Shown here: positions 4,885 through 46,328 of the stretch, piece by piece
Numbering within the stretch: the first letter of the stretch is position 1
Layout: each line of letters starts with the position of its first letter
The notes under the pieces: model-generated
What the model was told of the DNA's origin: nothing
Databases searched by the model: none
What the model saw: only the letters and a program-made list of their open reading frames with translations
Virus record (IMG/VR): IMGVR_UViG_3300033273_000409
Span: 1-60,780 of that record
Direction: 5' to 3' (one strand)
From: a virus
Length of the DNA stretch: 60,780 nucleotides
Made by a program: the position numbers and the translations under genes

Positions 4885-7800
4885 ATGTCACTCACTCGCC
4901 TAACAAACCTGATTAGTTCTACTGAAGGTCGTTTTCTCTATGTTGATCCTAGTGAGTTCAACTCGTCAGACCTTATTTCAAATAGGGGCAACTCACCAAC
5001 AAGACCCTTCAAAACTATTCAGAGAGCACTACTTGAAGTTGCAAGATTTTCTTATGTCGCTGGTCCCGACAAAGGAAACGATAAGTATGATCAATACTCA
5101 ATTCTTCTATCACCAGGGGATCACTGGATTGATAACAGACCTGGATACTTTGTAGATTGGGATAAAGACACAAACTATTGGAATACTGATCAGGAGATCA
5201 ATGGGCAAGTTATTGTTCCTAAACTGACAGATGGATCCAACTTTAATATTTTTGATGACAACAACGACCTATTCAAGTTCAACTCCACTGAAGGTGGTGT
5301 AGTCATTCCTAGAGGTACTTCCATCATTGGTAGTGACCTCCGTAAAACGAGAATTAGACCTCGTTATGTTCCTGACCCAATGTATGCGGAGTATCTAGAC
5401 TCCAACAATATAGGATATGGTACGTCTGACTATAAGCAACCTGGAGCATATGTAGAGGAAGCATACAATCAGACTTTAGGAAGAACATCGTTCTTCAGAG
5501 TTACTGGTGCTTGTTACTTCTGGCAGTTCTCTATCTTTGATGCTGTTCCAACTAACACTGGTGGTATCTACAGATATGCAACTAATGACTTTGCAGATAT
5601 TGTCAAGTTCACTAAGTATTCTGCAAACTATGAGTGGAATCTATCTCAACAACCACTCACAACTGATGCCACAACTGGTCTAGGATCACACCACAAAATT
5701 ACTGGTTTTGAGTATGCCAATGGAATGTCAGTTGCTGACATTGTTTGCACTCAAGCAGTCAATGATCCCACTGCCACTGATATCTACCTCAACAAGATCA
5801 ACAGTGGTTCGCAGGCAAGAATCTTCATGGGAGATTACCTGCTGATTGATAATTCTACTGCCTCATCGAGAGAGGTTGTTAGAGTCAAGAAGGTATATCC
5901 TGAAGAGAGCAGAATCACTGTATATAGAAACCAGTTAGGTACAACAGCCCCTGCACTTCATGAAGCAAATACTAAGATCACTAAACTGAATGATCTTGGA
6001 CTGTATTATGCAAAGGTTGCTAGAGGTTTCTCTGACGCTGATATTATTGACCCTATTACTGATGCTGAAGGTGAGATTGAAGCAAGACAGCAGGAAAATA
6101 GAATTGTTGGTCCTCTGAACGTAGACAATAGAATTGAGTCTATTGCTATCAATCTGATTCAAGGATCGAGATATAGAATTAGTGTTACTACAAGAGGATC
6201 ACATGGTCTATTCAAGAACCAGATCGTTTCTTTGAAAGACCTGGATGTAACTGAAACCTCTCAAGGTACTGGATTTGGTGGTGACATCAACGGTACAGTC
6301 TTTGTTACTAGTGTTATTAATGCTAACACAATTCAATGTGAGAAGGTTCTTTCTTCCTCTACAATCCCACAGACATATAGTTTCAATACTACAGCAGCAG
6401 CAACACTGATTGCTGATATTGATACTGTTGACTCTGCATCACCATATATCTTCAACTGTTCGATTCGTTCAGTCTTTGGTATTTGTGGCATGTTGGCTGA
6501 TGGATCTAAGGCAACTGGATTCAAGTCAATGGTTGTTGCACAGTACACGGGTGTTTCGCTCCAGAAGGATGATAGAGCGTTCGTTCGTTACATGTATCAG
6601 ATCCAGAATAGAACTGATGCTGATGGCAACCCACTGAAAGATCCCGCATGGTTGACAGAATCGCAGGTAGGATTCACTCTACCATCTGACCAAGTATCGA
6701 CTACAGTTGCTACACTACACAGTGAAGGATCTGCACTCTATCGTGATGACTGGAGAACTTTCCACGTTCATATCACAAATGAGAGTTTGATTCAGGCAGT
6801 TTCTGTCTTCGCTGTTGGATTCTGTGATCACTTCTTGATTGAAGATGGTGGTGACATTTCTATTACCAACTCTAACTCTAACTTTGGTAATACAGCTCTG
6901 AGAGCGATTGGTTTCCGTGAGAAGTCATTCCCTCAGGATAAGTTTGGTAAGATCACTCACATCATTCCACCTAAGAAGATTGATGATACTGCTATTGATG
7001 AACTGTCCTGGTATCCATTTGATGTTGCAAAGGTACAATCATCTAATACAAATGCAACCAGAACCAAACTACATCTATTCAATGCTAAGACACCAAATAA
7101 GACACCAACTTATCTGTTTGACAACAAGTATGTTTTAGGTGGTAAGCAAGATGAAGACCTAGATGTTGAGATGACTCTAGGTGCTATCACTGTTGTCAAA
7201 AACGTACAACTAGCAACCAACGTAACTGGTTCTGGTTCATTCGAACACGTACAAGAGAAAGTATTTACAGTCAACCCAAATACTGACGTTTGTACTCTGT
7301 CTGGCGGTCAAACTCACCAGTGGAGAACTGGTACACCTGTCAGAATTGAATCTGAGATGGGTTACTTACCTGATGGTATTGAACCTAACACCACATACTA
7401 TATTATCTCAGAGAATGGTGGTAGATGGACAAGTTCTGGTCAAGGATGGAATGGACCAACTGGAACTATTACAAACAGAGATAGTCAGTTCAAACTTGCT
7501 AAGACTATTGAAGAAGCAAGAGCAGGTACTGCTATCGATGTTCGTACTGATAATCCACCCAAAACTGTCAATACACAGGGTGAAATTACGGCAACTGGTG
7601 AACTGAGGGTCATCCAAAGAACCTCAGACATGAGACCAACTCCTACATCATTTGAATTCATTACTAGTACAAACTCTAACGAGTTTATTACTGTTAATGA
7701 TGCAACTGCTTTGGGACCAACAGAAATTCCTCACGGATTTGATAAGGGACAGCCTATCTTCTTCGTGAAATCTTCTGCGACAGATACAATGCCATCTCTG

Positions 7801-10800
7801 TCGAGTGGTCCTCTGATTCAGACACAATTCTACTATGCATATCCAACTAGCACATCAAGATTCAAGATCGTTGCTACATTTGACGATGCAAATAATGATA
7901 GAAACCTGATTACTTTAGGTGCTATCGCTGCTGCTGGTTCCGTCAAAGTATTTGCTAACTCTGGTCAGTGGCAAGCTGCTCCATGGATTACAAGATGCCC
8001 ACTACAGTATGATCCTCTGAATCCACTGGGTGCCTCTAATCCTGTAGACACTGAAACAGGAACTGCTGGTAACTGGATTGTAACTACTAAGACAGCAAAC
8101 AACCAGGTTATTGATGCTCTTTTGAGTGAAGGGGACTTCCAAGGAGATCAAGCACCTAAAGCAACACAACCAGCAAAACTCAAGCGTCAGAGAGACGTTA
8201 GAACTAACTATGATAGAACATATAGATTCAGATATGTTCTACCTAAAGAGTTCAAGTCTGCTCGCCCACCATTCCTTGGTTATGTTGTAAAACTAAGAAC
8301 TAATGCTGATGGATATGTACCTGAGACATGGGATGGTGGTATTCCTGGAGACTATACTCAGTATGAAAGAACATATTACATCTATGACATCACTGAGGTT
8401 CAGGACTTTATTCCTGGAGTACAAGATGGTGTCTACTATCTGACACTGCTGCTTGCAGATATTCAGGTTGATCATGACAGAATGGTTCGTGGTGATGGTG
8501 GTTCTATCTCACAAAACTGGTTCAAGAAGTTCAAGTTTAGTCAGAGCACCGCTGAACTATATCCTTCATTGGATGCTGATAATCCTGTCAGTAATGCACC
8601 AGTCGCTAAATCAGTTGCAGACCATAGAATTCAAGGTTATGTTTACTCTGATTCTAGAAGTCATTCTATCACTAGAGAGGCAGCAGCTTCTTTCCTCAAT
8701 GATAACAACTATGCCACGGTTGCAATCTCTAACATTACTGTAGAACGTGAAGGTTCAGCAAGAAGAGGTAGAGAAGACCAGTCAAGAATCTTACCTGTTG
8801 GTTATCTGAGAAGTGGTTCTTCAAATAGAACTGAAGATGAGGGTATTCAGATTGAACTTCGTAGACCATCTTTGGTTAGATCTGGTAACCATACGTTTGA
8901 ATATGTTGGTTATGGTCCTGGTAACTACTCAACTGCTTTCCCTGCTAAGCAACAACGTGAACTGACAGATCGTGAGGTTGTTGTATCACAGGCGAAGAAA
9001 GAAGATGCGGGTGTTGTATTCTATTCTGGTCTGAACTCACAGGGTGATCTATATGTTGGTAACCAGAAGATTAATGCTGTTACTGGTGCAATCGAGATTA
9101 TTGATGAGGCAATTCTAGAGGTTTCTGCTGTACCTGCGGACAACATTCCTGTTGGTGATGAAGAAGGTGCAGATTCTGGAGATGATGTATTTGATCTTGT
9201 TGTCAAAGGATCACTAACTGTTGAGAACTCTGACCAAGATTCAGCTGCTAGACAGAAAGGATCTGTTAGGGGTCCAACTAAGTTTTTAGGTGGTGTTCAG
9301 TTCAATACACCTAAGGATGCTGGAACTAAGACCCAGAAAGTTACATTCTATGGTGCAGGTAATGGTTTCTCAGTAAGAGATACTGGTGATTATCGTGGTG
9401 TTCATGACCTATTCTCTACAAACAACGTAAGTTTGAGAGCAGTTGGTGTCGAAACTTCTGGTGGTGAAATTACATTTGAAACCTATGATACTGATTTAGC
9501 ACTAAGAAAGGACACTACACTTTGGGCGCTAACTACACGTCCACCAATGCATGCTGCTGGTGCTGGTGATAACATTGAGAACATGGTAAGTTCTGCTGGT
9601 CTACTAGTAGATGTTACCTGGGCTCATGGTCAAAGTTTTGGTGATGTTGCACACAAAGCATCTGCTGCATTGAGTGCTGATGCTACATCAAACAACCAAT
9701 CTTGGATCTTCTTACCTGATCCTGCTGGTCAAACTGATGGTGTCTGGTATCAAACAGGCATGACAAAGACTGGTGGTCTATATGCTTTTGAGGATAGAGA
9801 TACACCAACTGAAGGTAGACTAGGCATCAATGGTTACTATAGAAACTCTGCACGTACCTCTAACTTCTACATCAAAGCAGGATCTACACGTCCTAATGAT
9901 TGGTTGGTAGGTATTGATAAGTCTGATGGATCTCCTGTTATGTGGATCGATCAGTCACGTTCTGGTGCTTCTGGAGCACTGACACAACCATCAGTTGCAT
10001 ACTTCCAAGACGCTCCAAGAACAAGAATTACTGAACTTGGTGGTGGTGTTTATTCATTCGATGTTGCACCTGGATATGTTTCTGCGTTTGGTGATACTGT
10101 TGTAATGTCATCTGATCTATACCTAGAAGACGATATGTTCTTCCGTGGTCAGACTAGTGGCATCTCAATTCCTAACAGTCATGTGTGCTATTCATCTTTC
10201 CAAAATGACAATGATGAGAACTATTTCTTCAGAGTTAAGGAACCAACTAACACTAATAATGTCTATAGAAACTTCAGTCTAAACAACGGTTTCTCACAAC
10301 CTGCAGGTACACTCTTCTCACCAGAAATTCGTGATGATATTATGAACCAAGCACTACCTGTTGGTGCAGTTATCATGTGGTCTGGAACTAACTCTAACAT
10401 TCCGAGTGGATATGTTCTATGTGATGGTGGTACATACAACAACAGATTTGGTACGACAACAGTTGCACCAAACATGACAGATAAGTTTGTCAAGGGTATG
10501 TTGAGTGCTAATGGAACTGGTGGTCAACATACTCAATCAAGAACTATTTCAATCTCTGCTCACGAACTATCAAGACCAGAAATTCCTGCTCACACTCACG
10601 GTTTGAACGGTCAATACTTCGAACACAAACACAACTATACTAAAGCTTATACGTCAACGGAAGGCACTGAATTGGAGCAAGAAGGTGTGCCCGATGGTAG
10701 CAGATTGTCTTTCATGACTGATGCATTGACTAGTAATCCAGACTATGGAGATGGTGAGACCCAACCTGGACCTGATTTCCACAACGATGTAGGTGGTGGT

Positions 10801-11085
10801 AGAACTAACAGAACTGGTCCTGGTTCTGGTGGTAATCACTCACTTGATGGTGGAGTTAGTGATCCTAGAAGAGGTGACAGTAGTGGTTCTGGTAACTCTC
10901 TAGGTAATTCAAGTAACGGAAGAGCATACGCACACCATCACCCAATTCAAATTACTGGTACTGGACAAGGCGATTCTGGTAGTGTTAATGCCAATGACTA
11001 TGGTACTGGTGATTCAGATAGTGCAACTCTATCATGGGATAACCAACCAGAATGGGTCAGTCTTGTATTCATTATGAAAGTTTGA
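4885..11085 (+). CDS. Large tail fibre / tail collar protein
   Basis: 2066 residues, late-expressed from TATAAATA at 4844. The N-terminal part (about 1-130, with N-R-G-N-S-P-T-R-P-F-K-T-I-Q-R-A-L-L-E) and the long middle look like a beta-solenoid fibre shaft of the kind seen in cyanophage virion proteins. Residues about 1823-1870 (L-P-V-G-A-V-I-M-W-S-G, P-S-G-Y-V-L-C-D-G) are a phage tail collar domain. The end is His- and Gly-rich with P-A-H-T-H-G, E-H-K-H-N and A-H-H-H-P, similar to the metal-binding HxH motifs of T4 gp12 and gp37 tips. The C terminus is the likely receptor-contacting end. It is the last structural gene before the accessory block. Confidence 0.8.
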   Translation: MSLTRLTNLISSTEGRFLYVDPSEFNSSDLISNRGNSPTRPFKTIQRALLEVARFSYVAGPDKGNDKYDQYSILLSPGDHWIDNRPGYFVDWDKDTNYWNTDQEINGQVIVPKLTDGSNFNIFDDNNDLFKFNSTEGGVVIPRGTSIIGSDLRKTRIRPRYVPDPMYAEYLDSNNIGYGTSDYKQPGAYVEEAYNQTLGRTSFFRVTGACYFWQFSIFDAVPTNTGGIYRYATNDFADIVKFTKYSANYEWNLSQQPLTTDATTGLGSHHKITGFEYANGMSVADIVCTQAVNDPTATDIYLNKINSGSQARIFMGDYLLIDNSTASSREVVRVKKVYPEESRITVYRNQLGTTAPALHEANTKITKLNDLGLYYAKVARGFSDADIIDPITDAEGEIEARQQENRIVGPLNVDNRIESIAINLIQGSRYRISVTTRGSHGLFKNQIVSLKDLDVTETSQGTGFGGDINGTVFVTSVINANTIQCEKVLSSSTIPQTYSFNTTAAATLIADIDTVDSASPYIFNCSIRSVFGICGMLADGSKATGFKSMVVAQYTGVSLQKDDRAFVRYMYQIQNRTDADGNPLKDPAWLTESQVGFTLPSDQVSTTVATLHSEGSALYRDDWRTFHVHITNESLIQAVSVFAVGFCDHFLIEDGGDISITNSNSNFGNTALRAIGFREKSFPQDKFGKITHIIPPKKIDDTAIDELSWYPFDVAKVQSSNTNATRTKLHLFNAKTPNKTPTYLFDNKYVLGGKQDEDLDVEMTLGAITVVKNVQLATNVTGSGSFEHVQEKVFTVNPNTDVCTLSGGQTHQWRTGTPVRIESEMGYLPDGIEPNTTYYIISENGGRWTSSGQGWNGPTGTITNRDSQFKLAKTIEEARAGTAIDVRTDNPPKTVNTQGEITATGELRVIQRTSDMRPTPTSFEFITSTNSNEFITVNDATALGPTEIPHGFDKGQPIFFVKSSATDTMPSLSSGPLIQTQFYYAYPTSTSRFKIVATFDDANNDRNLITLGAIAAAGSVKVFANSGQWQAAPWITRCPLQYDPLNPLGASNPVDTETGTAGNWIVTTKTANNQVIDALLSEGDFQGDQAPKATQPAKLKRQRDVRTNYDRTYRFRYVLPKEFKSARPPFLGYVVKLRTNADGYVPETWDGGIPGDYTQYERTYYIYDITEVQDFIPGVQDGVYYLTLLLADIQVDHDRMVRGDGGSISQNWFKKFKFSQSTAELYPSLDADNPVSNAPVAKSVADHRIQGYVYSDSRSHSITREAAASFLNDNNYATVAISNITVEREGSARRGREDQSRILPVGYLRSGSSNRTEDEGIQIELRRPSLVRSGNHTFEYVGYGPGNYSTAFPAKQQRELTDREVVVSQAKKEDAGVVFYSGLNSQGDLYVGNQKINAVTGAIEIIDEAILEVSAVPADNIPVGDEEGADSGDDVFDLVVKGSLTVENSDQDSAARQKGSVRGPTKFLGGVQFNTPKDAGTKTQKVTFYGAGNGFSVRDTGDYRGVHDLFSTNNVSLRAVGVETSGGEITFETYDTDLALRKDTTLWALTTRPPMHAAGAGDNIENMVSSAGLLVDVTWAHGQSFGDVAHKASAALSADATSNNQSWIFLPDPAGQTDGVWYQTGMTKTGGLYAFEDRDTPTEGRLGINGYYRNSARTSNFYIKAGSTRPNDWLVGIDKSDGSPVMWIDQSRSGASGALTQPSVAYFQDAPRTRITELGGGVYSFDVAPGYVSAFGDTVVMSSDLYLEDDMFFRGQTSGISIPNSHVCYSSFQNDNDENYFFRVKEPTNTNNVYRNFSLNNGFSQPAGTLFSPEIRDDIMNQALPVGAVIMWSGTNSNIPSGYVLCDGGTYNNRFGTTTVAPNMTDKFVKGMLSANGTGGQHTQSRTISISAHELSRPEIPAHTHGLNGQYFEHKHNYTKAYTSTEGTELEQEGVPDGSRLSFMTDALTSNPDYGDGETQPGPDFHNDVGGGRTNRTGPGSGGNHSLDGGVSDPRRGDSSGSGNSLGNSSNGRAYAHHHPIQITGTGQGDSGSVNANDYGTGDSDSATLSWDNQPEWVSLVFIMKV

Positions 11086-12144: not shown

Positions 12145-13215
12145 ATGTCTCTCAACGACGCATTCAATACTGAATCGTTTGTGAATAGTTACTGGGCAAA
12201 GGATCATTGTGATCCTGCAGTCTGGGACTATGTTCCCTCCACTTATGGGGTGGAAGGTGCAGAACTGGTTGGTGAAAAGCACATGAAGTTTTTCTCTGAT
12301 CTTAACAACTCCTGGAAGAATCCTGGACGAGTTAGCACTGACCCCAAGCGTGTTAGAGAACTAGTTACCGAGATTGTAGAGAACGGTATCAAGACCCAAG
12401 GTAGCGTAATTTATTATGATGTTGACACACTTGATCGTGTCAATGGTACACACCGCACAGAAGTTGCTGCCGAATTAGGTATCGACGGATGGATGATGCA
12501 GGCAATTCGCTTTACTAGTGAGCGAGCAAAGATCGAGTTTGCCACTCTGTCTAATAACAGAAAAGATCTCCTGCACCTGAATACTTCACCAACAGATGTA
12601 TTCGAAGCAGTGTGGGCTTTGAATAATCTTGATGATAACTTTGATGAGCAGCAGGTAAAAGCAGACGTACTTCGTCTGGGTTGGCACCTCACCAAGAAGC
12701 AGAAAGAGAGGATTTTTGATAATCTGATCATGAAGTTTCGATTGAGTGGTGCTGCTCCTACCCGCAAGTATGCTGATTATAATACTAATCAGTTCCACTC
12801 TTTGATGGCAGAGATGTCACACAGAGACCTCAATCCTACCTGGGTTGATATGTGGGAAGACGAGGATTGCATGACGTTGTATATCAACGCTAAGCAGTTT
12901 GAGTCTCGCGTTGGTACTATCATCAATGCAAATGTGCAAGCAATCAAGGCAAACAAACCGCTGCACATTATCTACAGTGTGTCAATTCCTGAGGGTGAAA
13001 AGAATACCCTACAGACCAATCGATTGTCTTTCTGGACTACACAGATGGCATCGATTGAGACTCGCATGATGGAATCATGTGGTCTTCAGGGTGATATGCA
13101 CCGCCGAATCTTTGCTTGGAATGATCCAAGATGTGAGCATCGTGCGGTTGCTCAAGATAACATTCAGGAGGATCAGTTTGACCTTATCAAGGTAAGAAAC
13201 CGAGACTTCAACTGA
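12145..13215 (+). CDS. ParB/sulfiredoxin-like domain protein
   Basis: 356 residues. Residues about 65-120 resemble the ParB N-terminal fold: a helix V-R-E-L-V-T-E-I-V-E-N-G, a strand Q-G-S-V-I-Y-Y-D-V, then D-R-V-N-G-T-H-R-T-E-V-A-A-E-L-G-I, which fits the G-x-H-R nucleotide-binding motif (residues 101-104). The remaining 230 residues are mixed helical and unrecognised. ParB-like proteins include CTP-dependent partition factors and nucleases or modification enzymes. It has its own consensus promoter and ends just before a strong terminator, so it is a single-gene unit. A link with the array at 22.8-23.1 kb is only a speculation. Confidence 0.6.
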   Translation: MSLNDAFNTESFVNSYWAKDHCDPAVWDYVPSTYGVEGAELVGEKHMKFFSDLNNSWKNPGRVSTDPKRVRELVTEIVENGIKTQGSVIYYDVDTLDRVNGTHRTEVAAELGIDGWMMQAIRFTSERAKIEFATLSNNRKDLLHLNTSPTDVFEAVWALNNLDDNFDEQQVKADVLRLGWHLTKKQKERIFDNLIMKFRLSGAAPTRKYADYNTNQFHSLMAEMSHRDLNPTWVDMWEDEDCMTLYINAKQFESRVGTIINANVQAIKANKPLHIIYSVSIPEGEKNTLQTNRLSFWTTQMASIETRMMESCGLQGDMHRRIFAWNDPRCEHRAVAQDNIQEDQFDLIKVRNRDFN

Positions 13216-22299: not shown

Positions 22300-22542
22300 T
22301 TACTCCGTTTTTCTTGTACCCAACCCAGTCTCTCTTGCTTTATTCAATCTCCACCAATCTTCTGCTGTCTCATGTGATTCAAAGTATTTTACTTTTCCGT
22401 GCCAGAATAAAGTAAACTTATCAAGTAATGACTCATATGATATCATTGGAGCTTCCTCTGATTCATATACAATGTCATTCTCATAGCAATCATGGATGAA
22501 TTTTTCCATATCTGCCTTTTCTTCTTCAATCCATCTGTCCAT
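22300..22542 (-). CDS. Hypothetical protein, 80 aa, only minus-strand gene
   Basis: M-D-R-W-I-E-E-E-K-A-D-M-E-K-F-I-H-D-C-Y-E-N-D opening, then S-Y-E-S-L-L-D-K-F-T-L-F-W-H-G-K-V-K-Y-F and A-E-D-W-W-R-L-N-K-A-R. Composition is protein-like and there is no competing plus-strand frame. A longer start at 22608 would add a hydrophobic leader (I-H-I-L-L-Y-I-F-L-F) but reaches into the DnaA-box palindrome, so 22542 is preferred. Its promoter must lie in the origin-like region, which thus sits between divergent genes. Confidence 0.65.
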   Translation of the reverse strand: MDRWIEEEKADMEKFIHDCYENDIVYESEEAPMISYESLLDKFTLFWHGKVKYFESHETAEDWWRLNKARETGLGTRKTE

Positions 22543-22600: not shown

Positions 22601-22654
22601 TTTTCCACAAGGATGTGGAAAAAGTGTTATAAACTGGGGAAAACATGTGGAATA
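22601..22654. promoter_or_regulatory. Left DnaA-box cluster
   Basis: TTTTCCACA-AGGA-TGTGGAAAA is a perfect 9-bp palindrome (22601-22622), followed by TGTGGAATA (22646-22654). It overlaps the probable promoter region of the minus-strand gene. Confidence 0.65.
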
Positions 22655-22762
22655 TGATCTTTTGTAATCTTATGTCTTCTTATGTCTTCTTATGCCAAAT
22701 CTTATAGTCATCTTAGCGTGCATGTTAACACAAAACTCCGAAAATGTCAAGACCTCAAAAAT

Positions 22763-23059
22763 CTAGTCTAGGGGTTGACAAAAATCTCGACTAGGGTTAT
22801 AATAACTCTACTAGATTCAACTAGATTTCATATAATCTCGACTAGATCATATATCTCTACTAGATCTCTACTAGACCCTTCTAGAATCGTCTATAACACG
22901 TCTAGAACTAGATCTCTACTAGATCTACTAGATTCTTCGTAATTCATAACTAGATGCACTAGATCATGTACACATATACGTACTAGATCATAACTAGATC
23001 ATGCGTGTATATGTGTACTAGATGAGCGAGAATGCGTGTACTAGATGTACGTGTACTAG
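22763..23059. repeat. CTAG array: 20 copies, 13 within ACTAGAT
   Basis: CTAG starts at 22763, 22768, 22791, 22811, 22821, 22842, 22860, 22871, 22881, 22902, 22908, 22919, 22928, 22950, 22959, 22983, 22994, 23018, 23041 and 23056. Thirteen are in ACTAGAT, most often preceded by T or A, with longer versions TCTCTACTAGAT and TCTCGACTAG. Eleven of 19 spacings are within about 1.5 bp of one or two helical turns (9-11 or 20-22), so a bound protein would sit repeatedly on one face. No protein frame runs through it, and it is not a CRISPR: there are no constant spacers or long repeats. Confidence 0.85.
22775..22803 (+). promoter_or_regulatory. Perfect consensus promoter firing into the CTAG array
   Basis: TTGACA (22775-22780), exactly 17 bases, TATAAT (22798-22803). 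The transcript would start near 22810 and run through the array with no gene for over 500 bases. A CTAG lies in its spacer and two just before the -35, so array-binding protein could repress it. Confidence 0.8.
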
Positions 23060-23155
23060 ACGCACATACGCTCACCCCACTCACCCCTACCCACACCATT
23101 TGTGCGTGTTATGTGTTATAATGTGTGTGTATGTGTTAGGTATAGTGGGGGCACG

Positions 23156-23239
23156 TATTCCACAGATATTCTGTCTCAAGGGGGGAAAAACGATGAAATT
23201 TGTATAGTTTTCCACAAATATTTGAGAATCTGTGGAAAA
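23156..23239. promoter_or_regulatory. Right DnaA-box cluster
   Basis: TATTCCACA (23156-23164), TTTTCCACA (23208-23216) and TGTGGAAAA (23231-23239); the last two form a 9-bp inverted pair around 14 bases. A further dyad, ATCACGT/ACGTGAT, lies at 23265-23285. Confidence 0.65.
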
Positions 23240-23374: not shown

Positions 23375-23575
23375 ATGGCAGATCGTATCATTGATCGTGA
23401 TTCTCTGCAGGAAAATTACATCGAAGCAATCATCGATGGAATGGATCACAAGTCCTTGTGGGCGTTCGTTTATGATAACCTGAACGATCATTTGGATAAG
23501 TATAGTGTCAATGAGTTGATTCAGGAAGTTGAAGAGTATTATCCTGAACTTCTTGAAGAAAGTGAGGCTAACTGA
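23375..23575 (+). CDS. Small acidic protein, 66 aa
   Basis: M-A-D-R-I-I-D-R-D-S-L-Q-E-N-Y opening. Start at 23375 because a CCCCAT/ATGGGG hairpin (about 23326-23347) and TATAAT (23351-23356) lie in the longer frame. Helical and acidic (L-I-Q-E-V-E-E-Y-Y-P-E-L-L-E-E). First plus-strand gene after the origin-like region; unrecognised. Confidence 0.6.
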   Translation: MADRIIDRDSLQENYIEAIIDGMDHKSLWAFVYDNLNDHLDKYSVNELIQEVEEYYPELLEESEAN

Positions 23576-26286: not shown

Positions 26287-26784
26287 ATGACCCACACCGC
26301 ACTCATCGAATCCCTCCCCATCTATCAGAAGTGGGAGAGCAGCAAACAGTCCATCTGGGAGGGCAGCAAGTTCCAGTCCTTCCGCAACATCCCCTCCCCC
26401 AAGTCCAAAGGCGCTCAGGGTGAGCGTCTGGTTCAGCAGGTGATGGAGGCGCTCGGGCATCGTGTCGAGCGTCCTGAGAATTCTGATCATGATCGGATCA
26501 TCGACGGATGGAAGACTGAGATTAAGGTCAGCACCACCTGGAACGAAACCCTGGACAACTGGACCTGGCAGCAGATCAGGGAGCAGGATTATGATCGGAT
26601 CATCTTCGTGGGCATCAACCCCAACGACGTGAGCATCTGGTGGGCGACCAAGGAGGACCTTCGTCAGTTCGTGCTGGGTCGTGATGAGATGCGCCAGCAT
26701 GCTGGCAAGGACGGCGGTCAGGAGTTGTACTGGATTCAGGGCAGCGGCAAGCGCCCCTGGTTTCGTGATCTGGCAGACTTCTGA
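26287..26784 (+). CDS. Putative PD-(D/E)XK nuclease
   Basis: 165 residues. G-E46-R-L-V, S-D67-H-D69-R-I-I and T-E78-I-K80-V-S fit the E, D, E-x-K metal site of the restriction-endonuclease fold, on the usual strand order (K-S-K-G-A-Q-G-E helix, then H-R-V-E-R-P-E-N and W-K-T-E-I-K). Later R-I-I-F-V-G-I-N and V-S-I-W-W-A are strand-like. It could be a host-DNA-degrading, resolvase-like or homing-type enzyme. No companion methylase is seen. GC-rich and set between its own promoter and a strong terminator, it behaves as an independent cassette. Confidence 0.65.
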   Translation: MTHTALIESLPIYQKWESSKQSIWEGSKFQSFRNIPSPKSKGAQGERLVQQVMEALGHRVERPENSDHDRIIDGWKTEIKVSTTWNETLDNWTWQQIREQDYDRIIFVGINPNDVSIWWATKEDLRQFVLGRDEMRQHAGKDGGQELYWIQGSGKRPWFRDLADF

Positions 26785-34242: not shown

Positions 34243-37200
34243 ATGACCAACATTTCTCAATTAGTCGATAACCAACTACCTGAGTTTTTCGTTCAGGAAT
34301 ATCCGCTATTTGTTGATTTTTTCAAACAGTATTACAGATATACTGAAATTGATAATTCATCATCATCCATTCTGAAGAAAATTCAGACTTATCAGGGTGC
34401 AGATTTTTATAAAGATGGTATTATCCTAGAAACCATCCTTGCTTCTGACGTTAGTGCGACAGATACTCAAATCACCCTTTCTAGTGACGTAAACAAGGAT
34501 AAAGCAGTAGATAAGAATGATGTACCCATTTTTAGGAGATTTCCTAAAGAGGGATTGCTTCTCCTGAAATCAAGTAATGGTGATGAGATTGTACAATATA
34601 AGTCATACGATAAAAATACAGGTGTTTTTAGTCACCTAAAGAGAGGTGCTGCAGGTACAGTTAAATTAGGTGACCTTTTATTAGAATCTGACTCATATAC
34701 TAGTACAGATGCAGTCGCGCATAGTGCATCTGATACTACAGTAACTAATATTACTCATTTGTTCTTGGCATCTCTGTTCAAGAACCTAAAAACACAATAT
34801 TTCTCTGGTCTACCAGTAGAAAGACTAAACGAGAGTGTAAATGTACCGACTGTACTAAAATACATCAAAGATTTTTACAGATCTAAGGGTACAAGTCCTG
34901 CTGTAGAATTTTTATTCAGAAGTTCGTTCAATGACGAGAAGATTCTCGTTAGATATCCAAACGAGCAACTCATCAAAGCTTCTGAATCAACTTGGTCTAT
35001 TGATACTATTGTTCAGGGAGACTTAGTAACTCTTAAATCTGGATATACTATTGATGATCTCTCAGGATTAGTTCTAAAACAGTCAACATATGCTTATGAT
35101 CCTTCTATTATAGAAGCATCTGCATCTATTGAAAGAATTGTTGCTGTAAAGAGTGGTGACAGGCAATTATATAGAATTTTTGTCAATAGTGAAAGTACAA
35201 CAGGAACTTTCTCTCCAATAAACCAAACTCTAAGTAGAGTAAACTTTTCTTTTGGTCAAAAATCTCTAGTTGTTGATTCTACTGTAGGATTCCCAGAAAT
35301 TAATGGGATATTCTACATTGATGGAGTTGTAGATCAAAATGGAGATGCTGTTGCCTTTACATATGCAGAAAAAACTGGAACTGAGTTTTATGGTATTGAA
35401 AGTAACGCTCTAGGGTTCACTACAGCACAAAAGAATACAAGAGTTTATAGTGGAAATATTGTAAGTGTAGTAGAAGATGTTACTTCTTCTATGAATTCTG
35501 CTTTTGCTGAATTTAGACCAACAGGAGTTATTACAGACTTCAATATTGTAAATAGTGGTTTATTATTATCTGAAGGTGATAAATTTGACTTTGTTCAGTC
35601 TGGTATTGAAGGTACTACGCCAATTGAAACCTCCTGGTCACAGAATGTACCAGGAAATGAGGCAAATGTGAATTTGGTAAGTGTTTCTGGTCAGATGGAT
35701 GCAACTTATCTGCAAGGAAACTATAGAGTTACTAAGGGTGTAAACGGTGTATATGATGATGGCGATTACGTATACGTCTCTTCCAACGGATTTCCAGATG
35801 TAATTGGATCAATTGGTAATATCAATGGTGGTCCTAATGCGTTACTTAGACCAGCTTCGCAAAGACATCTGAAAAAGATTCCTAAGCAACTAAGTTTTGC
35901 ACAAACATTATATGCTCTCCCAGATGATAATACGGTTGCAGTATCTGTTGATGGTGTACCTATTATCTCCCCAACAGGAACAAATGAAATAATAACTAAT
36001 AGAGAATTGGTAACTCAAGGTGAAGTTACCAAAATCAATGTTACCAATGGGGGATCTGGTTACTCTGCAGCACCTAGGGTAACGATTAGTGGTGTTGGTG
36101 GAGCAGCAGGAACTGCAACCATCTCAAATGGTAGTGTTATTGGAATCACTATTACTTCTGCGGGTCAGGGTTATACTTATAGACCAGAAATTACTATCTC
36201 CACTGGATCTGGAGCAGTTTTACAGGCAAATTTTGGATCAAATAATAAACTAGGGGATATTCAATCTTTAGATATTGTAAACAGTGGATCTTTCTATACT
36301 CAGACACCAGATATCGAAGTTGTAGACGAATCTGGGAGGGGTAGAGGTGCTAAATTTATTGTTGAGAATATTGATCCAGTAAACGGTAATATTACATCAA
36401 TCAAGAAAGTTTCTGGTGGTTTTGACTATGATCAGTCTAAAACCAAGATTTATGTAGTATCTACTGGCACTGGAGCAACAGCAGAAGCAGAAATCAGAAG
36501 CTGGCATAGAGATAACTATGCGGCATATACACAGTTTGCTGATGATGCAAATGGATATCCTTTCCAAGGAAGATTGCCAGAATATAATGATGCATATTAT
36601 TATGTTGGTAACCCTAGAGGTTATAGAATTACTAAAAATGATAATATTACTCCTAGTGGAGTTGAATTGCCATCTGATCTCTCACACTCGCCAATTGTTG
36701 CTTGGTCTTATGATGGAGTACCAATTTACGGTCCAGTCGGATATTCAGATCCAATGGATTCCACATCTGATCTAAAGAGAGTAGAATCTTCATATTATCT
36801 GAAAGAAAATAGAGGTGTAAATGGTCCCACTGCAGTGGAATTTACTATGGGCACCTTTGTAGAGGATTATGAGTATAAACCAGAAGGAAATGCTCTACAT
36901 AAAGACTTAGATAAGCATAATGGTCGATTCTGTGTTACTCCAGATTTCCCAGAAGGTAGATATTGCTATTTCTTGACGATTCATACTAGTGATGATGTCA
37001 ATCAAAAGAATAGACAGGATGCTAGACCAAGATATCCTTATATGATTGGTCCAACATATAAGTTCAATCCCGAAGACTCTAATTTTACAACAGAATCGAT
37101 TCTATCATCTTTACCTTCTAACGCAATTAGAATTAGAGATGTAAATGATAATGTTCCTAATTTTGGAGTTAATTTAGAAGCAACTGTAACTGCAGTTTCT

Positions 37201-40200
37201 TCTGGAACTGTAGATTCTGTAATTATCGAAAATCCAGGAAACAATTACTCAATTGGAACAGATAATTATTATCCACGATTTGTTGCTGGGGATAAACTTT
37301 TTGTAGATGATACAAATACTGAGGGTGTAGGATTTTCTGGTAAGGTTGCTTCTATTATTGCAAAAAATGATTCTGGATCGGATATTGGTGTATCTTCTAT
37401 TTCATATTCATCAATTACTGGAAATTTAGACGTTAGAAAGCAAATTCTAAATATTGCTCCACCAACATTTGATGGTACAAATTTCCAGTATAATAAAATC
37501 TTTGAAAGTGATACTATTGTAGATACATCTAAGACTGTATATAATCTTGAAACTGCAATTCCATGTTCCGCTACAGATACTGTACTTAGATTTAGAGAAG
37601 CGAACACTTCCAATGTAAATATTGGAGATACTGTTGGTATTCAATCAGAAAGCATTTATATCAGTAGTGCATTCACTAATAGTGTTCAATATGCATATTT
37701 AAGTGTAGCAACTACCCAAACACAAGATCCAGTTTCACCACAGACTGACCGAGGATTCTTCTGCAAGTATGAGGGTGGTAAAGCACTGTTTGATGAAATT
37801 TATGTAGATTCTGGAGAAAATTCAACTAAAATCGGTAAAATCCTAGAAATCAATACAGTAGCAAATGTATTGAAGGTTGAGATGTATATTGATCCAGATA
37901 CACAAAATTATTATTCATTCCCAGCGTTGGGAACTGGCATTTCAAACCAAATTCAGACCGAACCTCGATATAGTCAGAATGTTAGTGCTATTGAATATGT
38001 ACAAGAAGTTACTGTTGTTAGAGGATACGATGGATCCAATGAATCCAAGCATCCTTCTGGTGTAAAATGCCCAACCCAAGTTCCTACTGCAACTATTGAC
38101 GATTATAAGGTAAGACTTCAATTTACTGGTGCTGATCCATCTTTATTTGTTCCTGGAGTTTACATTAAGGGTCAAAACTCAGATACTACCGCACGTATTG
38201 AACTGGTAGAAACCATTTCTGCAACTTCAGGATATTTGTATCTAACTGATGTAAAAGAAGGACCAAATGCTGCTGATGTTCCTAGATTTGGTATTTACAA
38301 TAATGGATCATTCAATCCAGAAACTATCAATGAAATTGGTGCTGGTGTATCAACAACACTTACAGAATCTGTTGATGGGGATGACACAGTACTAAAAGTT
38401 GTCAATAGCGATCTTTTCTATGTCAATCGTTATGTCAACGTTGGTTCCGAACTAATGAGAATCACTGACAAACAACCAGGTCAGTTGACAGTTGCTAGAG
38501 CACAGGGTGGTACTCCTGCAGATGACCATTCAGTAAATGCCACTGTAAGTATTGCAAACCATACTGCTACAACAGCAGGTGATACATATCAACTCACAGT
38601 TTCTTTGGAAAACGCACAAAGATTCTCTAATACTAGCACATTCAATGATAACAATGGTGATAGCATTGCGATCGATACTGTTGCTGATGGTAAATTATTA
38701 GGAGAGGAGAATACTTTAACTATTGATGCTCAAAATTATGACAGGTTCGCTCTCGGTGATATAATCAAGATTGGAACGGAGCAAATTAGAATTGATAGTA
38801 AGAGAACTAATCTTCTAAGAGTTACAAGAGGATTCAATCAAACTACTGCAATCAATCACAACCATAATCTCTCTGTAGAAAATGTTAGTAAGTACGATGC
38901 ACTCGTAACTACAAATACTCCTCATGATTTGATTGATAGTGATCTCATAGAAATTACTGGAGATCCTTCATTAGAGACAGTTCAAGAGACTGGTATTGCT
39001 GTTAGAATTTCAAACGGTCAGTTTGAATTCAATAGTGTTCATACTAATGGAAATTATCAGCAAAATCCGTCATTGACTTTAGTTTATGGTCATAAGTATG
39101 TTTTTGATGTCTCAGATTCATCTAATACAAATACTACTCTTGGATTGTATTCTGATAAAGACTTCAATAATGAAATTTCTGTAGAAAGAATTGGTGTCCC
39201 TGGTTCATTGAACTCTAAAGTTATTTTGAAGAATACCAATAGAGACAATACTAATATTTACTACAATAATCCCAATGCTCTTATTTCTAGCCTAACAAGT
39301 AGACTTACATTTATTGATGATCCATATAATGTTTCTTTGACTGGGGTATTTGATCTGACCACCACAACATTCAAGTATCTTGTCAGATCTAGACCAGAAG
39401 GGAATGCTAGAGGAACTAAGACACTTGCACTGCAAAGTCATAGGTATTCTGGCAAGATTAATAGAATTTCTATTACAGATAGTGGTGATGGATATCAGTC
39501 ACTGCCAGTTATCAAGGGTATCTATTTTAGAGAAGAGGATGCATTCAGAGGCACCGTTATTACTGATGATGATGGTACAATTCAAAGAGTAGATATTGAT
39601 TTTGGTGGAACAAGATATATTTCACCAAAAGTATATGTCATTGGTAATGGAAGTGGCGCATCAATGACTGCTGATGTTCTTGACAATAGTGTCAGACGAA
39701 TCACCATTAATAATGGTGGTTTTGGGTATGATAAAGACACTCAATTAGTCTTAGTTGAAGAAGATGCTAGAACAGCAAGAATTCTTCCTCAAACTAAAAC
39801 CATTGGTAAGATTTCAGCATTCAGTATCAAGAATCCTGGACTTGATCTGACAAGTAACTATACGATGGCACCTCAGGTCAGAATTCCGACCACTATCCAA
39901 GTTACTAACATCAATGGTGAATATAGGAAGGGTGAGACTGCATATCAAGGAAACGTAAATAATCCATCAGGAAAGGGTATTGTTGAAAGTTTTGATACTA
40001 AGATCAATGTTCTAAAACTTGTCGGCGTCACAGGTCGCTTTGTTGATGGAGAAACTGTTGTTGGATATACGTCTTCAGCAACTAGTAATGCAAATAAAGT
40101 AAACCTGTCTAAGGTTTCTGCAACTGTAGGTGCTCTAACTACAGTTGAAGGCGTATTTACCGATGAATTCGGTAAAATGAATACTGCATCTCAAAAGATT

Positions 40201-43200
40201 CAGGATTCTTACTTCTACCAAGACTTCTCTTATGTAATTAGATCTTCGATTCCAGTCTCTGATTGGAGACAAACTATCAAGACATCAACCCACCCCGCAG
40301 GTTTTGTTGTATTTGGTGAGGTCATTATTGACTCTTCCCAAAGTGTAGCAATGCTACCTGTTCTAGGTGAGGTCAAGTGTCCTGCAAATGACGTTACTTC
40401 TTCTTGGAAATTTGATACTAGAACGGAGATTTCAAATACTGGTGATACTGCAGGTGCTCTATATCTTAGAAATGCATTTGGTGTTCAGGTTGGGGATGCT
40501 CTGAAATATCGTTCTACAAGTCAAGATGAAGTTATTTCTTGGAATGCTACAAATCTTGCAGGGGATCAGATAACAGGAAGACTGGTTCATGATCGTATTT
40601 ACCATGTGCTAGAAATTACTGCTACCGATCAATATGGAACTTGGGTCAAAGTGGGTCAATATCATCCATCAGATAAATTTGCTGATGTTGCTCACAACAA
40701 AGAAAATTACATTTATAATTTAGTACCAACTGATATTTCATATAAGCATGAGTTTAGATGTGATAGTCAAAATCCAAAGACTCTAATTACAATCAACGTT
40801 ATCAAAAAGTTTGTTGAGATTGAAGATACTAGAGCACAATTAGGACCATCACTCAAAACTATTCAAATTAATAAGTTCTTCCAATTCAATAGGAAGCGTG
40901 GTATTGGTTCTCTTATTGTATCTGAAGGATCTGTTGCGGTTGATCTCAAGCAAATTGATGATCTAACTCCAACCTTCGTAGAAGGTGTGAAGATGTATGA
41001 TTTGAGAAGTCTTGGAACTAATTTTATCCCTTACAATGAAAATACTCTAATTATTACTCTTGATGGTGTTGTTCAAGAACCAGGAAAATCATTCAGTATT
41101 ATTAACGATAGAAAGTTAGATGAACTAGAAATTACAACAACTGGTGCAGGAGAACTTGAATTTGATTCTTGGAGAGTCACTAATATCTCAACTAATGCAG
41201 GTATTGCTGATATCAGAACTGTGTATAATGATCTGGATTTTGTTTACATCAAGGCAGAAAGTTTACCATCATATACTACTGAATTTTCAGGATATACAAC
41301 AGCACCGTCTGCACAAGGGTTTATTAGAAGATTCCCCAAAAAACCATTTGCTCCTGTCCAAAAAACCAGAAAACCCTTAGGTACTTTTGGTACTTTTGTG
41401 AATGGTGTTCAGATTTATAATGTTCTGCAAGGAGATAGTTATAAAAATGGGGGTTATTGGAATATCAACCATGGAAACTGGTCTGGAAATGAGGATACTT
41501 ACAATGGTTTAGTTGACTCTGCTGGTACATATTTTCACTATAACAATCCAATTGAACTAAGAAGACAACTATCTGATAATATTTCTCCTTCTGGTACATA
41601 TACTGAAGCAACTTCATTATCTCACTCACCAATTCTTGGTTGGGCATATGATGGTACTCCCATCTATGGTCCATATGGATATTCAAATCCAGATGAAGTT
41701 TCTTCTATTGTAAAGATTGATAGTAGTTATTCTAAGAGATCTATTGCTACAAGAAATGTTCTTCCTGACGGAACTATTCTTCCAGATGCTGAAGTTGGAC
41801 CCCCAGTCAACTCGGTAGAGTTTACTGTAACTGCTTTTGTAGATTTTACTGGATCGACCGCAGCGTTTGAGCAAGACCAGAATATATTACAAGTCAATAG
41901 TGGAACGAATAGTGATGTAATTGCAGGAGTTTCTGGAACGGTTGTTTCTTATGATTCAACTACAAGATTGATGCTTTTGAATAATGTTACTGGAACATTT
42001 GCTGATGGTATGTGGATCAAGTCTCAGACTGGATGGGCACAAATCAATAGCGCACCTGTTCGATATAATCTTGGATATTTTGCTGAAGATTATGTCTATA
42101 TTGATGGATCGGGACATCTTGATCAATATAATGGCAGATTCTGTGTAACTCCAGAATTCCCAGAAGGAAGATATTGTTACTTTAGCACTATCGAGTCAAC
42201 AACTCCCACATATGGCGGAGCAAATAATGGCGCATATCCATATATTGCTGGTGTTGACATGTATCATAGATTTTATGAGGAAAACCGCCTCAGAGCATCT
42301 GAGCTGAAAGATAAGATTATCTTCAATGATCCTCCTCTAAAATATACTGATCCAATTAATGGACAAGTAAATGTACAGAGATTCCAAGGAAGACTGTTCA
42401 GTTTTGTTGATGATAACAATAACCAAGAGTATACTAAAAAATATAAGGATATCTCTTCACAGTTTGATGGAAATAAGACAACTTTCAATCTAGAACTTAC
42501 TCACGGTCAAGCACTGTATGCACCTGATGATGCGGCAGAGGCAAATGAATATGCATTTGTTTGTATTGATGGTGTTCCTCAGGTATATGGTGAAGCGTAT
42601 ACCATCAATGAAGCGGGCAATACAATCACATTTACCACTCCACCAAAAAGAATTGGTAAAGTGATCAATATGAGTGAAGTTACTAATATTTCCCAATTTG
42701 CTGATAGTGAAATTGTTGTTGGTCAAACCACACAAGCACAAGGAAAGGTTCTATCAAGAACACCATCTGGTTATGAAGGTAAGGGTATTATGAAGGTTGA
42801 GGTTATCCGTGGTGACTTCCAAAATGAAAACATTGTTGGTCAAACATCAAATACTACAGGTTCTATCAAACTGACTGGAACTATTACTACGGGTAAAGAT
42901 AGATTCCTTGATGCTGCCAATTTGATTGAAGCAAACAAGGAATTGATTGCTAATGAGGCAGTTGATATTATGTTGAATTATACTGCCTATACAGGATTCT
43001 CCGTACCAGGAGGAACTCAAAATTGCGTTGATGATGTCAAAGACGTTATTGGTGCAGTGGTCAATAACTTAAGATTTGGTGGTAATGATTATACCTGGGA
43101 TGCAGCAAATCTATATGCAACTGGTGGAGCACTTCAACATCTTGTAGGTGAAGAGGAACAATCTAAACTAGTATTCAGATGGGCAAAAGACCTATGTATT

Positions 43201-46200
43201 CTTGCAATGCAGAATAAACTTGGTTATAACCCCGTTGATGGTGCAGGATATCCAACAAATCCAGTTGAAGATAGATTTGTTGATGCAGCAAATTTGATCA
43301 CAAGCAATAGAGACTTTATTGCAAATGAGGCTGTTCAGAGAATGCTTCTTGATCCAGCAAATTCTGGATTCTCAGTTCCTGGTGGAACTGTAAATTGTGT
43401 TGATGATGTCAAAGATGTCCTAGATTCTATGGCATTCAATATGAGATATGGTGGAAATAGTAAGGTTTGGGATTCAGCAAACTTTTATGCCACTACAGAT
43501 AATCTTTTGGATGAAGAAGATGAATCGATTGAGGTTTTCAACCATGCTAGAGCAATCGCTATTGAGGTAATTAATAACATTGCAGTAACTGTTCAAGGAA
43601 CACATGGTTTGACACAAACGTTTGACAATACCATTACTGTTGATGCTGGGGGATGTGCAAATGTACAATCAGCGATTACTACGTATATTGGTATTATTAC
43701 AAGCACAATTAGTGATAATACGTATTTGAATGGTGTGACCAGAACATCACCTAAAGCATATCCAATCACATATAATGGTCAGATCAACCCAGTTACTGAT
43801 GATACAATTATCGTTGATGGTGCGAGTTACACTGGATCATGTGCAAATATTGAATCTGCAATCTATACACTATTTGATATTGTAATCAATACAATCACTA
43901 ATCCTACAAGTCTATCTGCTATTACTAGAACATCGGGTAAAGGGTATGTAGAGAAAGTTGGATTCCCACAAGAATTCTTCGCATTTGCCAATGGTAAGTA
44001 TTCTGTTCTTGATTCTTTTGATACCTCACTTCAAGACAACACAACGTTCTTGCTGAAGAGATCTGGAGAACTTATTGTACCAACCAGTTCTCTTCAAGTT
44101 ATTATGATGGTTGATGGTGTGATTCAGGAATTTGGTAAATCATATGTCTTGAATGAGGCATTGGTTGAATTCTATGAACCAGTAAGAAAGGGATCTAAAG
44201 TCGTTGCACTTTACTGGTATGGTAAGGATCTTGAGAAGATTCTTCAGGGTTATAATATGCCTCTATATGAACCAAACTTCATCAAGAGAAACCTTATCAC
44301 TGGTACTCCAATCACATATACCGATCCAGGTGGATTCACTACGAATAAACTGATCAGATCAATTAAACCTGAGGATGTGCCTGTATTTGAATATCTTGAT
44401 ACTTCGAAAAAAGTCCAAATTGATGGTGAGGCACAACCAAGAACTATCTTTAGTGTTTCTGATAGAGACATTATTCAATGGGAGACTGATGATACTGAGA
44501 GCAACACCTACTCGTTTGATGCAGCAAACATCAATACTGTATTCCGTAAAGTATATCTTGATGAATATACTGGAACAGCACAAACTTCTGATGTTATTGA
44601 ACCTGGCACAAGAGTAACATACAATAACAATGGCAATCCAGATGTTCCTGGGTTGACTGGTGGTCAGCAGTATTATGTTGGATATCGTTATCCTGAAAGA
44701 GCAGTTCTGTTCTACAATGATTATCAAACATCACTCTCATCTGACGAGACTTATTCTATTGCAATTGGAACCAGTACGGGTGTTCATAGCATTACTATTC
44801 CATCAGATCTATATGGTCTGAGACAAGCAAATATCACTACCAGTGATTATGGTGGTATTACTAGAGGACAGGGTGCAGATCTTGTTGCTAGAGTTAGATG
44901 GACCGCAACTGTTGCAAGTACTGCATCATATGCAGTAGACACATTGCTATTTGCTGGTGGTGAAACTGTCGCTAAAGTAATCCAGGTAATTTCGCCAACT
45001 GAGGTCGAAATTCAAATGTTCCCAGATAGGGCAATTGCACTAAACTCTGTTGTTACGACTGACCTTGGTGGATCTAATCCACAAACAGTTACTGGAAGAG
45101 TCAATGGTAGAGTTGTTGCTATTGAACCTGTTCAGGGATCGTTCCCAATCGGATCAGATTATGAGACCGCTCCAGTAATTATTATTAGACCAGCTAAAAA
45201 TGATTCTGGTAGATATGCACGTGCATATTCTCAGATCAATAGAAATAATCAACTTGAAAATTGTGTTGTAACTAGTGAGGGTGAAGAGTATTACGAAGTT
45301 CCTGATGTACTCGTCAGTAGAGAATATGATGTTATTACTCCAGTATATCCAACTGTCAAGACTGCAGGATATCTAAACTTCTGGACATCACAAAACACTC
45401 AAATTTCTGTCAGCACCCTTATTGATGCTAGATCTGAAGTTGAGGTTGAAATTCTAAGGAATATTGATGTTGGTTTAGATGAACCAGTTGATGATCAAGT
45501 AATTACTATAAATCTTGAACCAAAGATTCTTGATGATTTTATTACCACACCAGGAAAAACTTATTCATACAATGGTGCGGCACCATTTGAAGAAGATTTG
45601 GCAGATGCAGTCCCAGCAACAGTCACTTCTGTTGGACTATTGAGACTGACACCAACATTCAGTCTCCTTGAGGAAGATAGATTTGCTCTTGAGACATCGT
45701 TTGAGATTGGTAGTTTGGATCAGTTCCAAGACTTAACTATTGGAACGGTAAGTGATAGATACTATTCTTCGATCTATAAAGATCTAAATAACCGCGTGAC
45801 CAGATATAATATGTCACCAATTACATCAACTGTTGATGCTGTGGCAACAGTGACATCTAACTATTCAACCACAGACACTTCACTTTATATTTCTAGTGTA
45901 GCTGGTTTCAATCGACTTTACGTTGAGGGAACAACTTTCTGGATTTATCCTGGTGCAGAGATTTACAATGAAGTTTCCACTGAAATGATTGGTAGAGTTG
46001 AGAGAATTATTGATTCAAATACTTGGATAATTCAATTAGAAAGAGGCAAACAACTTACACTTGGTCAAGGATTGACATATGCCAAGAATACTGTGAAGGT
46101 AACAGAAGTTGCCGATAGATATGGATATGTTCAATTTGCTGAAACTAATAGAATGGAAGTTATTAGATATGGAACTGTGAATTGGACTAATAACTCATTG

Positions 46201-46269: not shown

Positions 46270-46277
46270 TCACCCAC

Positions 46278-46285
46278 TATAAATA
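46278..46285 (+). promoter_or_regulatory. T4-type late promoter TATAAATA
   Basis: Exact late box nine bases after the giant gene and 44 bases before gp8; TATAAATAA overlaps at 46284. Confidence 0.85.
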
Positions 46286-46328
46286 TAAATAATCGAAGGA
46301 CTTAGACCCTTACTCTAGAGATATAACA

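Follow-up and report, generated by a model that had tools for sequence, protein, structure and literature searches.

A CTAG-rich repeat array at a promoter-bearing intergenic locus of T4-like cyanophages: a candidate operator

An IMG/VR virus record of 60,780 bases (the window, analysed over its whole length), which its genes and DNA matches place as a T4-like marine cyanophage contig, carries an array of 20 CTAGs within 297 bp at positions 22763-23059. The array is real and strongly non-random. Judging from its sequence, we somewhat favour the view that it serves as an operator for a phage-encoded DNA-binding protein which would shut off early rightward transcription, mainly because its palindromic unit recurs within promoter spacers. 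The array is set in an interesting hub, with operator-like repeats, a promoter and host-type DnaA boxes. The features of the locus are as follows.

22300-22542, minus strand: divergent left gene, 80 aa, of no family, with relatives in S-BM3, L023 and G004
22601-22622, no strand assigned: inverted pair on the left, exact TTTTCCACA boxes at 22601 (plus) and 22614 (minus)
22668-22694, plus strand: 10-bp tandem repeats TCTTATGTCT, 2.7 copies
22701-22716, minus strand: short element CTAAGATGACTATAAG adjoining the leftward promoter, common to P-TIM68 and DSL-LC02
22722-22750, minus strand: leftward promoter-like TTGACA-17-TAACAT
22762-22772, no strand assigned: operator-like palindrome TCTAGTCTAGG, one mismatch, directly upstream of the −35 box
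22763-23059, plus strand: CTAG/ACTAGAT array, 20 CTAG and 13 ACTAGAT by count
22775-22803, plus strand: perfect sigma-70 promoter TTGACA-17-TATAAT, rightward, the sole perfect one on both strands of the window
22785-22795, no strand assigned: operator-like palindrome TCTCGACTAGG, one mismatch, in the −35/−10 spacer
22836-22846, no strand assigned: exact palindrome TCTCGACTAGA
22854-22923, no strand assigned: three one-mismatch TCTCTACTAGA sites, at 22854, 22865 and 22913
22960-23145, no strand assigned: alternating purine-pyrimidine stretch, in which 73% of steps alternate (49% on average over the window, at most 65% elsewhere)
23208-23239, no strand assigned: inverted pair on the right, exact TTTTCCACA boxes at 23208 (plus) and 23231 (minus)
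23375-23575, plus strand: right gene, 66 aa, DUF7326 / phrog_1352

The array and its palindromic unit

The original prediction had counted 20 CTAGs in 297 bp, 13 of them in ACTAGAT, where about one CTAG would be expected by chance. Recounting gave the same numbers, positions and spacings, and the rate in the rest of the window gives an expectation of 0.72 CTAG per 297 bp. Along the remainder of the window no stretch of that length holds more than 4, and ACTAGAT occurs there only once, at 57208. First-order Markov simulations of the whole window (n=60) reached at most 8 CTAGs per 297 bp, and simulations with the array's own dinucleotides (n=5000) gave a mean of 3.8 and a maximum of 12. Over the whole window CTAG is not in excess (167 observed against 191 expected). 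It had further been suggested that the sites are helically phased, so that a protein would bind the same face many times. Such same-face phasing is weakly supported: 11 of the 19 successive gaps lie within 1.5 bp of 10.5 or 21, compared with 5.5 expected (p=0.007, for gap classes chosen after the prediction had named them), whereas a Rayleigh test over periods of 9.5-12 bp gave p=0.076. The pairwise cosine of CTAG positions gave p=0.072 at 10.5 bp and p=0.014 at 10.0 bp. Elsewhere in the window there are very long open frames at 34243-46269, 48024-56711 and 4885-11085 (4008, 2895 and 2066 aa), which are probably structural.

The CTAGs of the array belong to an 11-bp palindrome, TCT[AC]G[AT]C[TG]AGA, and its half-sites. 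The motif was derived from S-BM3, L010, L023, L051, L055, L061 and the window, and variants seen across arrays are TCTAGTCTAGA, TCTCGACTAGA and TCTCGACGAGA. Exact copies of TCT[AC]GNC[TG]AGA are confined to the array both in the window (1 of 1) and in the complete S-BM3 genome (4 of 4). When one mismatch is allowed, six of the seven sites of the window fall in the array (22762, 22785, 22836, 22854, 22865 and 22913), the seventh being at 39388, and six of the 15 sites of S-BM3 fall in its own array. S-CAM9 has one exact copy, away from the locus, and a sequence scan found none in P-TIM68, DSL-LC02, S-CREM1 or S-PM2d. Downstream of the promoter of the window the half-site ACTAGAT is found 13 times in the forward and never in the reverse orientation; summed over 15 array promoters the ratio is 54:13, and the downstream half-sites are unoriented in S-BM3 (2:2), L010 (2:2) and L023 (1:2). 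In two other contigs an open frame that is short, acidic and rich in DLDE starts within the array (L044, about 5500-5800; L020, about 1400-1580), and the palindrome (GATCTAGACGAG, GATCTCGACGAG) doubles as codons. A second repeat, TTCGTGTT, alternates with ACTAGAT around the promoter in L060, L061 and L063.

The palindrome in promoter spacers

One palindrome of the window sits in the −35/−10 spacer of the perfect promoter. Read from the sequence, such a placement is the arrangement of a repressor operator. To see how far it recurs, 129 distinct perfect promoters were compared, taken from the loci collected minus duplicates and a listed set of exclusions. A palindrome with at most one mismatch was found in the spacer of 9 of the 15 CTAG-rich promoters (6 or more CTAG per 300 bp), compared with 1 of the 114 others. 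The lone exception, L279, has a weaker array nearby, with 5 CTAG and 3 CTCGAC-type sites. CTAG counts in contigs picked by CTAG-containing patterns are biased by that choice; the spacer test is free of it because the spacer consisted of Ns in the pattern. The search with 17 spacer Ns returned 105 stretches, 80 of which were read as loci, and four of the nine positive promoters (L185, L187, L192 and L212) were first seen through such a pattern, after the motif had been defined. The full palindrome is missing from the spacer in 6 of the 15 array promoters. By eye, a half-site is present in the spacer of four more of the 15 (CTAGAT in L198, L060 and L063; TCGAGAT in L062). L251 and L282 have neither a spacer motif nor cyanophage-like genes, and their CTAG-rich promoters are probably due to chance. 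The exact promoter-operator pattern of the window was found by the IMG/VR scan in a single other contig, that of L022.

The original prediction had proposed a protein that binds many times, as in iterons, centromere-like parS arrays or silencer arrays. Multi-site binding is still the best reading, and among the three suggestions the silencer array fits best, given a palindromic operator as the unit and its position in the spacer of a perfect promoter. A probably dimeric and probably phage-encoded protein would bind the 11-bp palindrome and the half-site ACTAGAT. On the spacer and upstream palindromes it would keep host RNA polymerase off the rightward promoter, which we take to be early because of its perfect host-type consensus. 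The 17 downstream CTAGs would load more of the protein onto about 260 bp of transcribed leader, where it may form a road-block, spread cooperatively, or act as a sink and so set the threshold for repression. Several points count against an operator. Twenty sites exceed the need, since one would suffice for repression, and comparison of the window with L022 shows the CTAG positions to be hardly more conserved than the remainder of the array (changes at 3 of 78 CTAG positions, 14 of 217 in the rest of the array and 48 of 381 in the flank). The unoriented half-sites of S-BM3, L010 and L023, the six array promoters that lack the full palindrome and the failure to find a repressor gene also weigh against it. 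The T4-like cyanophages are thought to be lytic, and what a repressor would do for them is not evident.

The repeats might instead act as RNA, in a structured or repeat-bearing leader transcript. The array RNA does fold better than its shuffles (z=−2.84), but a palindrome-rich repeat alone yields such folding, no Rfam family matches at gathering cut-offs, and the motif also stands in the promoter spacer, outside any transcript which that promoter would make. We consider an RNA element very improbable.

The locus in relatives and the question of an origin

The complete phage S-BM3 has 14 CTAGs in 300 bp at the corresponding place, flanked by a homologue of the left gene on one side and the DUF7326 gene on the other. 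Thirty IMG/VR loci were reached through the DUF7326 protein: L010, L011, L022 and L023 are dense (14-18 CTAG per 300 bp), L020 and L021 have a mixed CTAG/CTCGAC array, and the remaining loci have at most 7 CTAG per 300 bp. Pattern scans gave further contigs, from which L045, L047, L053 and L057, being sparse or unlike, were left out as members; a search of IMG/VR for relatives of the left gene gave no match. The intergenic locus itself is common to many cyanomyoviruses, and the S-PM2 version finds matches in 72 phage records (E up to 1), of which the two from Campylobacter phages are likely due to chance. We read 27 homologous loci, with boundaries set by hand. Elements that recur among them are a rightward promoter, a TTGACA-like box facing left, a stretch of A/T-rich DNA and TTTTCCACA boxes. 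The rightward promoter is perfect at all five array loci of the window lineage (window, L022, S-BM3, L010 and L023) and at 2 of the 22 array-less loci (Syn9 and S-SSM4), that is, at 7 of 27 overall. The exact leftward-promoter pattern is found in 2 of 12 records, and this element is therefore not uniform. The adjoining CTAAGATGACTATAAG element is also present in S-BM3, with two bases different.

Other relatives have no array at the locus, or other repeat types. The interval between promoter and gene is rich in CGCAG/GCGCA in S-CAM9, where an array of this type (L064, about 1550-1900) replaces CTAG and is preceded by GTCTTGTGTAAAGTGCTCAGG repeats of about 21 bp; in S-PM2 it is rich in CTTAA/AAATC. 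In P-TIM68 and S-CREM1 the stretch from the rightward promoter to the following gene has no enriched 5-mer, and in S-ShM2 there is almost no room between the two. The repeat type thus differs by lineage. The repeats could have expanded in a nearly neutral way by slippage or unequal exchange, only the promoter-proximal operator being of consequence. Between L022 and the window a 22-bp unit has been inserted and CTAGs have been both gained and lost, and array-less relatives exist, as such expansion would have it. However, the copies have the 7-mer but not the spacer sequence in common, unlike a recent tandem duplication, and arrays are kept in S-BM3 and the window while the rest of the region is much diverged. 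Neutral expansion appears improbable to us.

The boxes flanking the array bring in a replication origin. An excerpt on cyanobacterial DnaA boxes (PMC4674748) gives TTTTCCACA as the consensus. All four exact boxes of the window flank the array, and one-mismatch boxes stand near the left pair (22635 and 22646) and on the right side (23156). Pairs within 60 bp were found in 11 of 20 phage genomes or long records, all at the locus; S-RIM32 has a second pair 1 kb further, and no record has a pair more than about 1.2 kb away. Of 6 complete genomes scored with mismatches allowed, 5 have their best box cluster at the locus. In S-CREM1 (87785-88432) and P-SSM7 (45973-46631) two pairs lie about 600 bp apart, like those at 22601 and 23208 of the window. 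An explanation of the TTTTCCACA dyads as intrinsic terminators was rejected, the terminator scan having found none there and other phages having direct, not inverted, copies.

The array might accordingly be an iteron-like part of an origin, with host DnaA on the TTTTCCACA pairs and an initiator on the CTAG sites, the DNA being opened by the promoter transcript or by local melting. In plasmids, a rep promoter can overlap its own iterons. The leftward promoter is directed at A/T-rich DNA, and one theta origin has been predicted for Syn9, according to an excerpt of a review (PMC2984593). Iterons stay a live rival on account of the DnaA-box pairs on both sides of the array and of the presence of the locus in many cyanomyoviruses. 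Against an origin, seven genomes (six and Syn9) have a monotone GC skew that does not turn at the locus. Over the 27 homologous loci, at least two exact boxes are found in 16, one in 4 and none in 7; at their loci S-BM3 has one and S-CAM9 none. Exact boxes lie near the array in only about half of the array contigs, the promoter-operator arrangement being commoner, and S-ShM2, P-TIM68, Syn9 and others have boxes without a CTAG array. An initiator was not found. On balance an origin is possible but rather unlikely, and the operator and origin readings may both hold.

Early control and the start of replication in cyanomyoviruses are little understood. They have no MotA/AsiA homologues and an unexplained middle mode, as stated in the excerpted review (PMC2984593). 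The locus offers one place to test both processes, in an isolated phage, S-BM3, on host WH7803. It is a tentative and on the whole doubtful proposal that the T4-like cyanophages, thought to be purely lytic, have a lineage-specific operator system at a conserved hub with host DnaA boxes. One phage protein would couple shut-off of the early promoter to control of the origin. CTAG, CTGCGC and other repeats would then stand for different specificities, and co-infecting phages could fall into immunity classes.

Candidate binding proteins and known systems

No gene for the binding protein or repressor was found in the analyses run. WH7803 is the recorded host of both S-BM3 and S-PM2, and S-PM2d is without the exact palindrome; a search for paired exact palindromes in the genomes of 84,980 species gave 12 hits, none titled as a cyanobacterium. 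The differing repeats of phages that share this host, together with the lack of cyanobacterial palindrome hits, favour a phage-encoded binder. A winged-helix-like gene is near the arrays in L046, L051 and L062, contigs that do not resemble S-BM3, but as a general binder it was ruled out, being absent from the complete S-BM3 genome (best E=2.5). The small proteins concerned, so labelled from their sequence, would be encoded at 2449-2748, 259-585 and 7920-8315, respectively. L035 has a winged-helix-like protein and no array in the stretch examined. Subtraction of lineage-specific genes was too noisy to name a binder.

The original prediction had pointed to a ParB-like protein at 12145. Searches of Pfam, PHROGs and NCBIfam with the protein at 12145-13215 gave no match to ParB or ParA, and we know of no partition in T4-like phages. 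A centromere-like parS array, for which the clustered repeats and nothing else speak, is thus scarcely credible.

The repeats could also be the target or decoy of a CTAG-type nuclease, whose cutting would start recombination-dependent replication or exclude other phages. A 165-aa protein (26287-26784, plus strand; T4-GC_685, phrog_6927) is 94% identical to its G003 counterpart and 81% to that of S-BM3. The S-BM3 counterpart is annotated "restriction endonuclease" and is 79-99% identical to the proteins of the window, G003 and G004. The 165-aa protein is PD-(D/E)XK-like in a low-confidence structural model (mean pLDDT only 62), which resembles restriction and homing nucleases (best E 1.2e-3). 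As the binder of the array this protein was rejected, since S-ShM2 has the gene, at 75% identity, and no array at the locus. Besides, 147 CTAGs lie outside the array in the window and 7 ACTAGAT outside that of S-BM3, and self-cutting would therefore be general. We regard a nuclease target as highly unlikely.

The open-access literature, which leaves most subscription papers outside its coverage, yielded nothing on cyanophages and CTAG, nor on a T4-like cyanophage replication origin with a DnaA box. The TrpR operator also has CTAG-centred half-sites, with different spacing and flanks. The original prediction knew of no named element of this kind in T4-like phages, a statement that needs the caveat of T4 oriE, where 12-nt iterons are clustered and their role is ill-defined (PMC3016281, in excerpt). 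In its likeness to the array, oriE has short repeats at even spacing close to a T4-like origin; its repeats are 12-nt direct repeats, and the excerpted text of PMC3016281 mentions neither DnaA-box pairs nor a promoter operator. The locus shares the DnaA-box consensus TTTTCCACA with cyanobacterial oriC (PMC4674748, in excerpt), and the origin of the PLE satellite has RepA iterons, a repeat cluster bound by a dedicated initiator (PMC7145576, in excerpt). Unlike these iteron or DnaA-box origins, the locus has no initiator gene that we could find and no skew signal, and there are relatives without the repeats.

The nearest working analogue is the operator/stoperator system of the Cluster A mycobacteriophages L5 and Bxb1, as described in excerpts of PMC6550527. 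These phages carry many copies of a short site, some in the early promoter and others elsewhere, mostly oriented with transcription; the bound repressor blocks elongation, and the site sequence varies between related phages. Membership of this class is not claimed for the array: the search for a repressor gave none, and the half-sites of S-BM3, L010 and L023 break the orientation rule. The likeness lies in the many copies of a short site, within the promoter and beyond it, and in a sequence that differs between relatives. In Cluster A the sites, asymmetric 13-mers, are scattered along the genome, the repressor is known and there is lysogeny, whereas the array of the window is CTAG-centred, partly palindromic and clustered at one locus of a T4-like phage.
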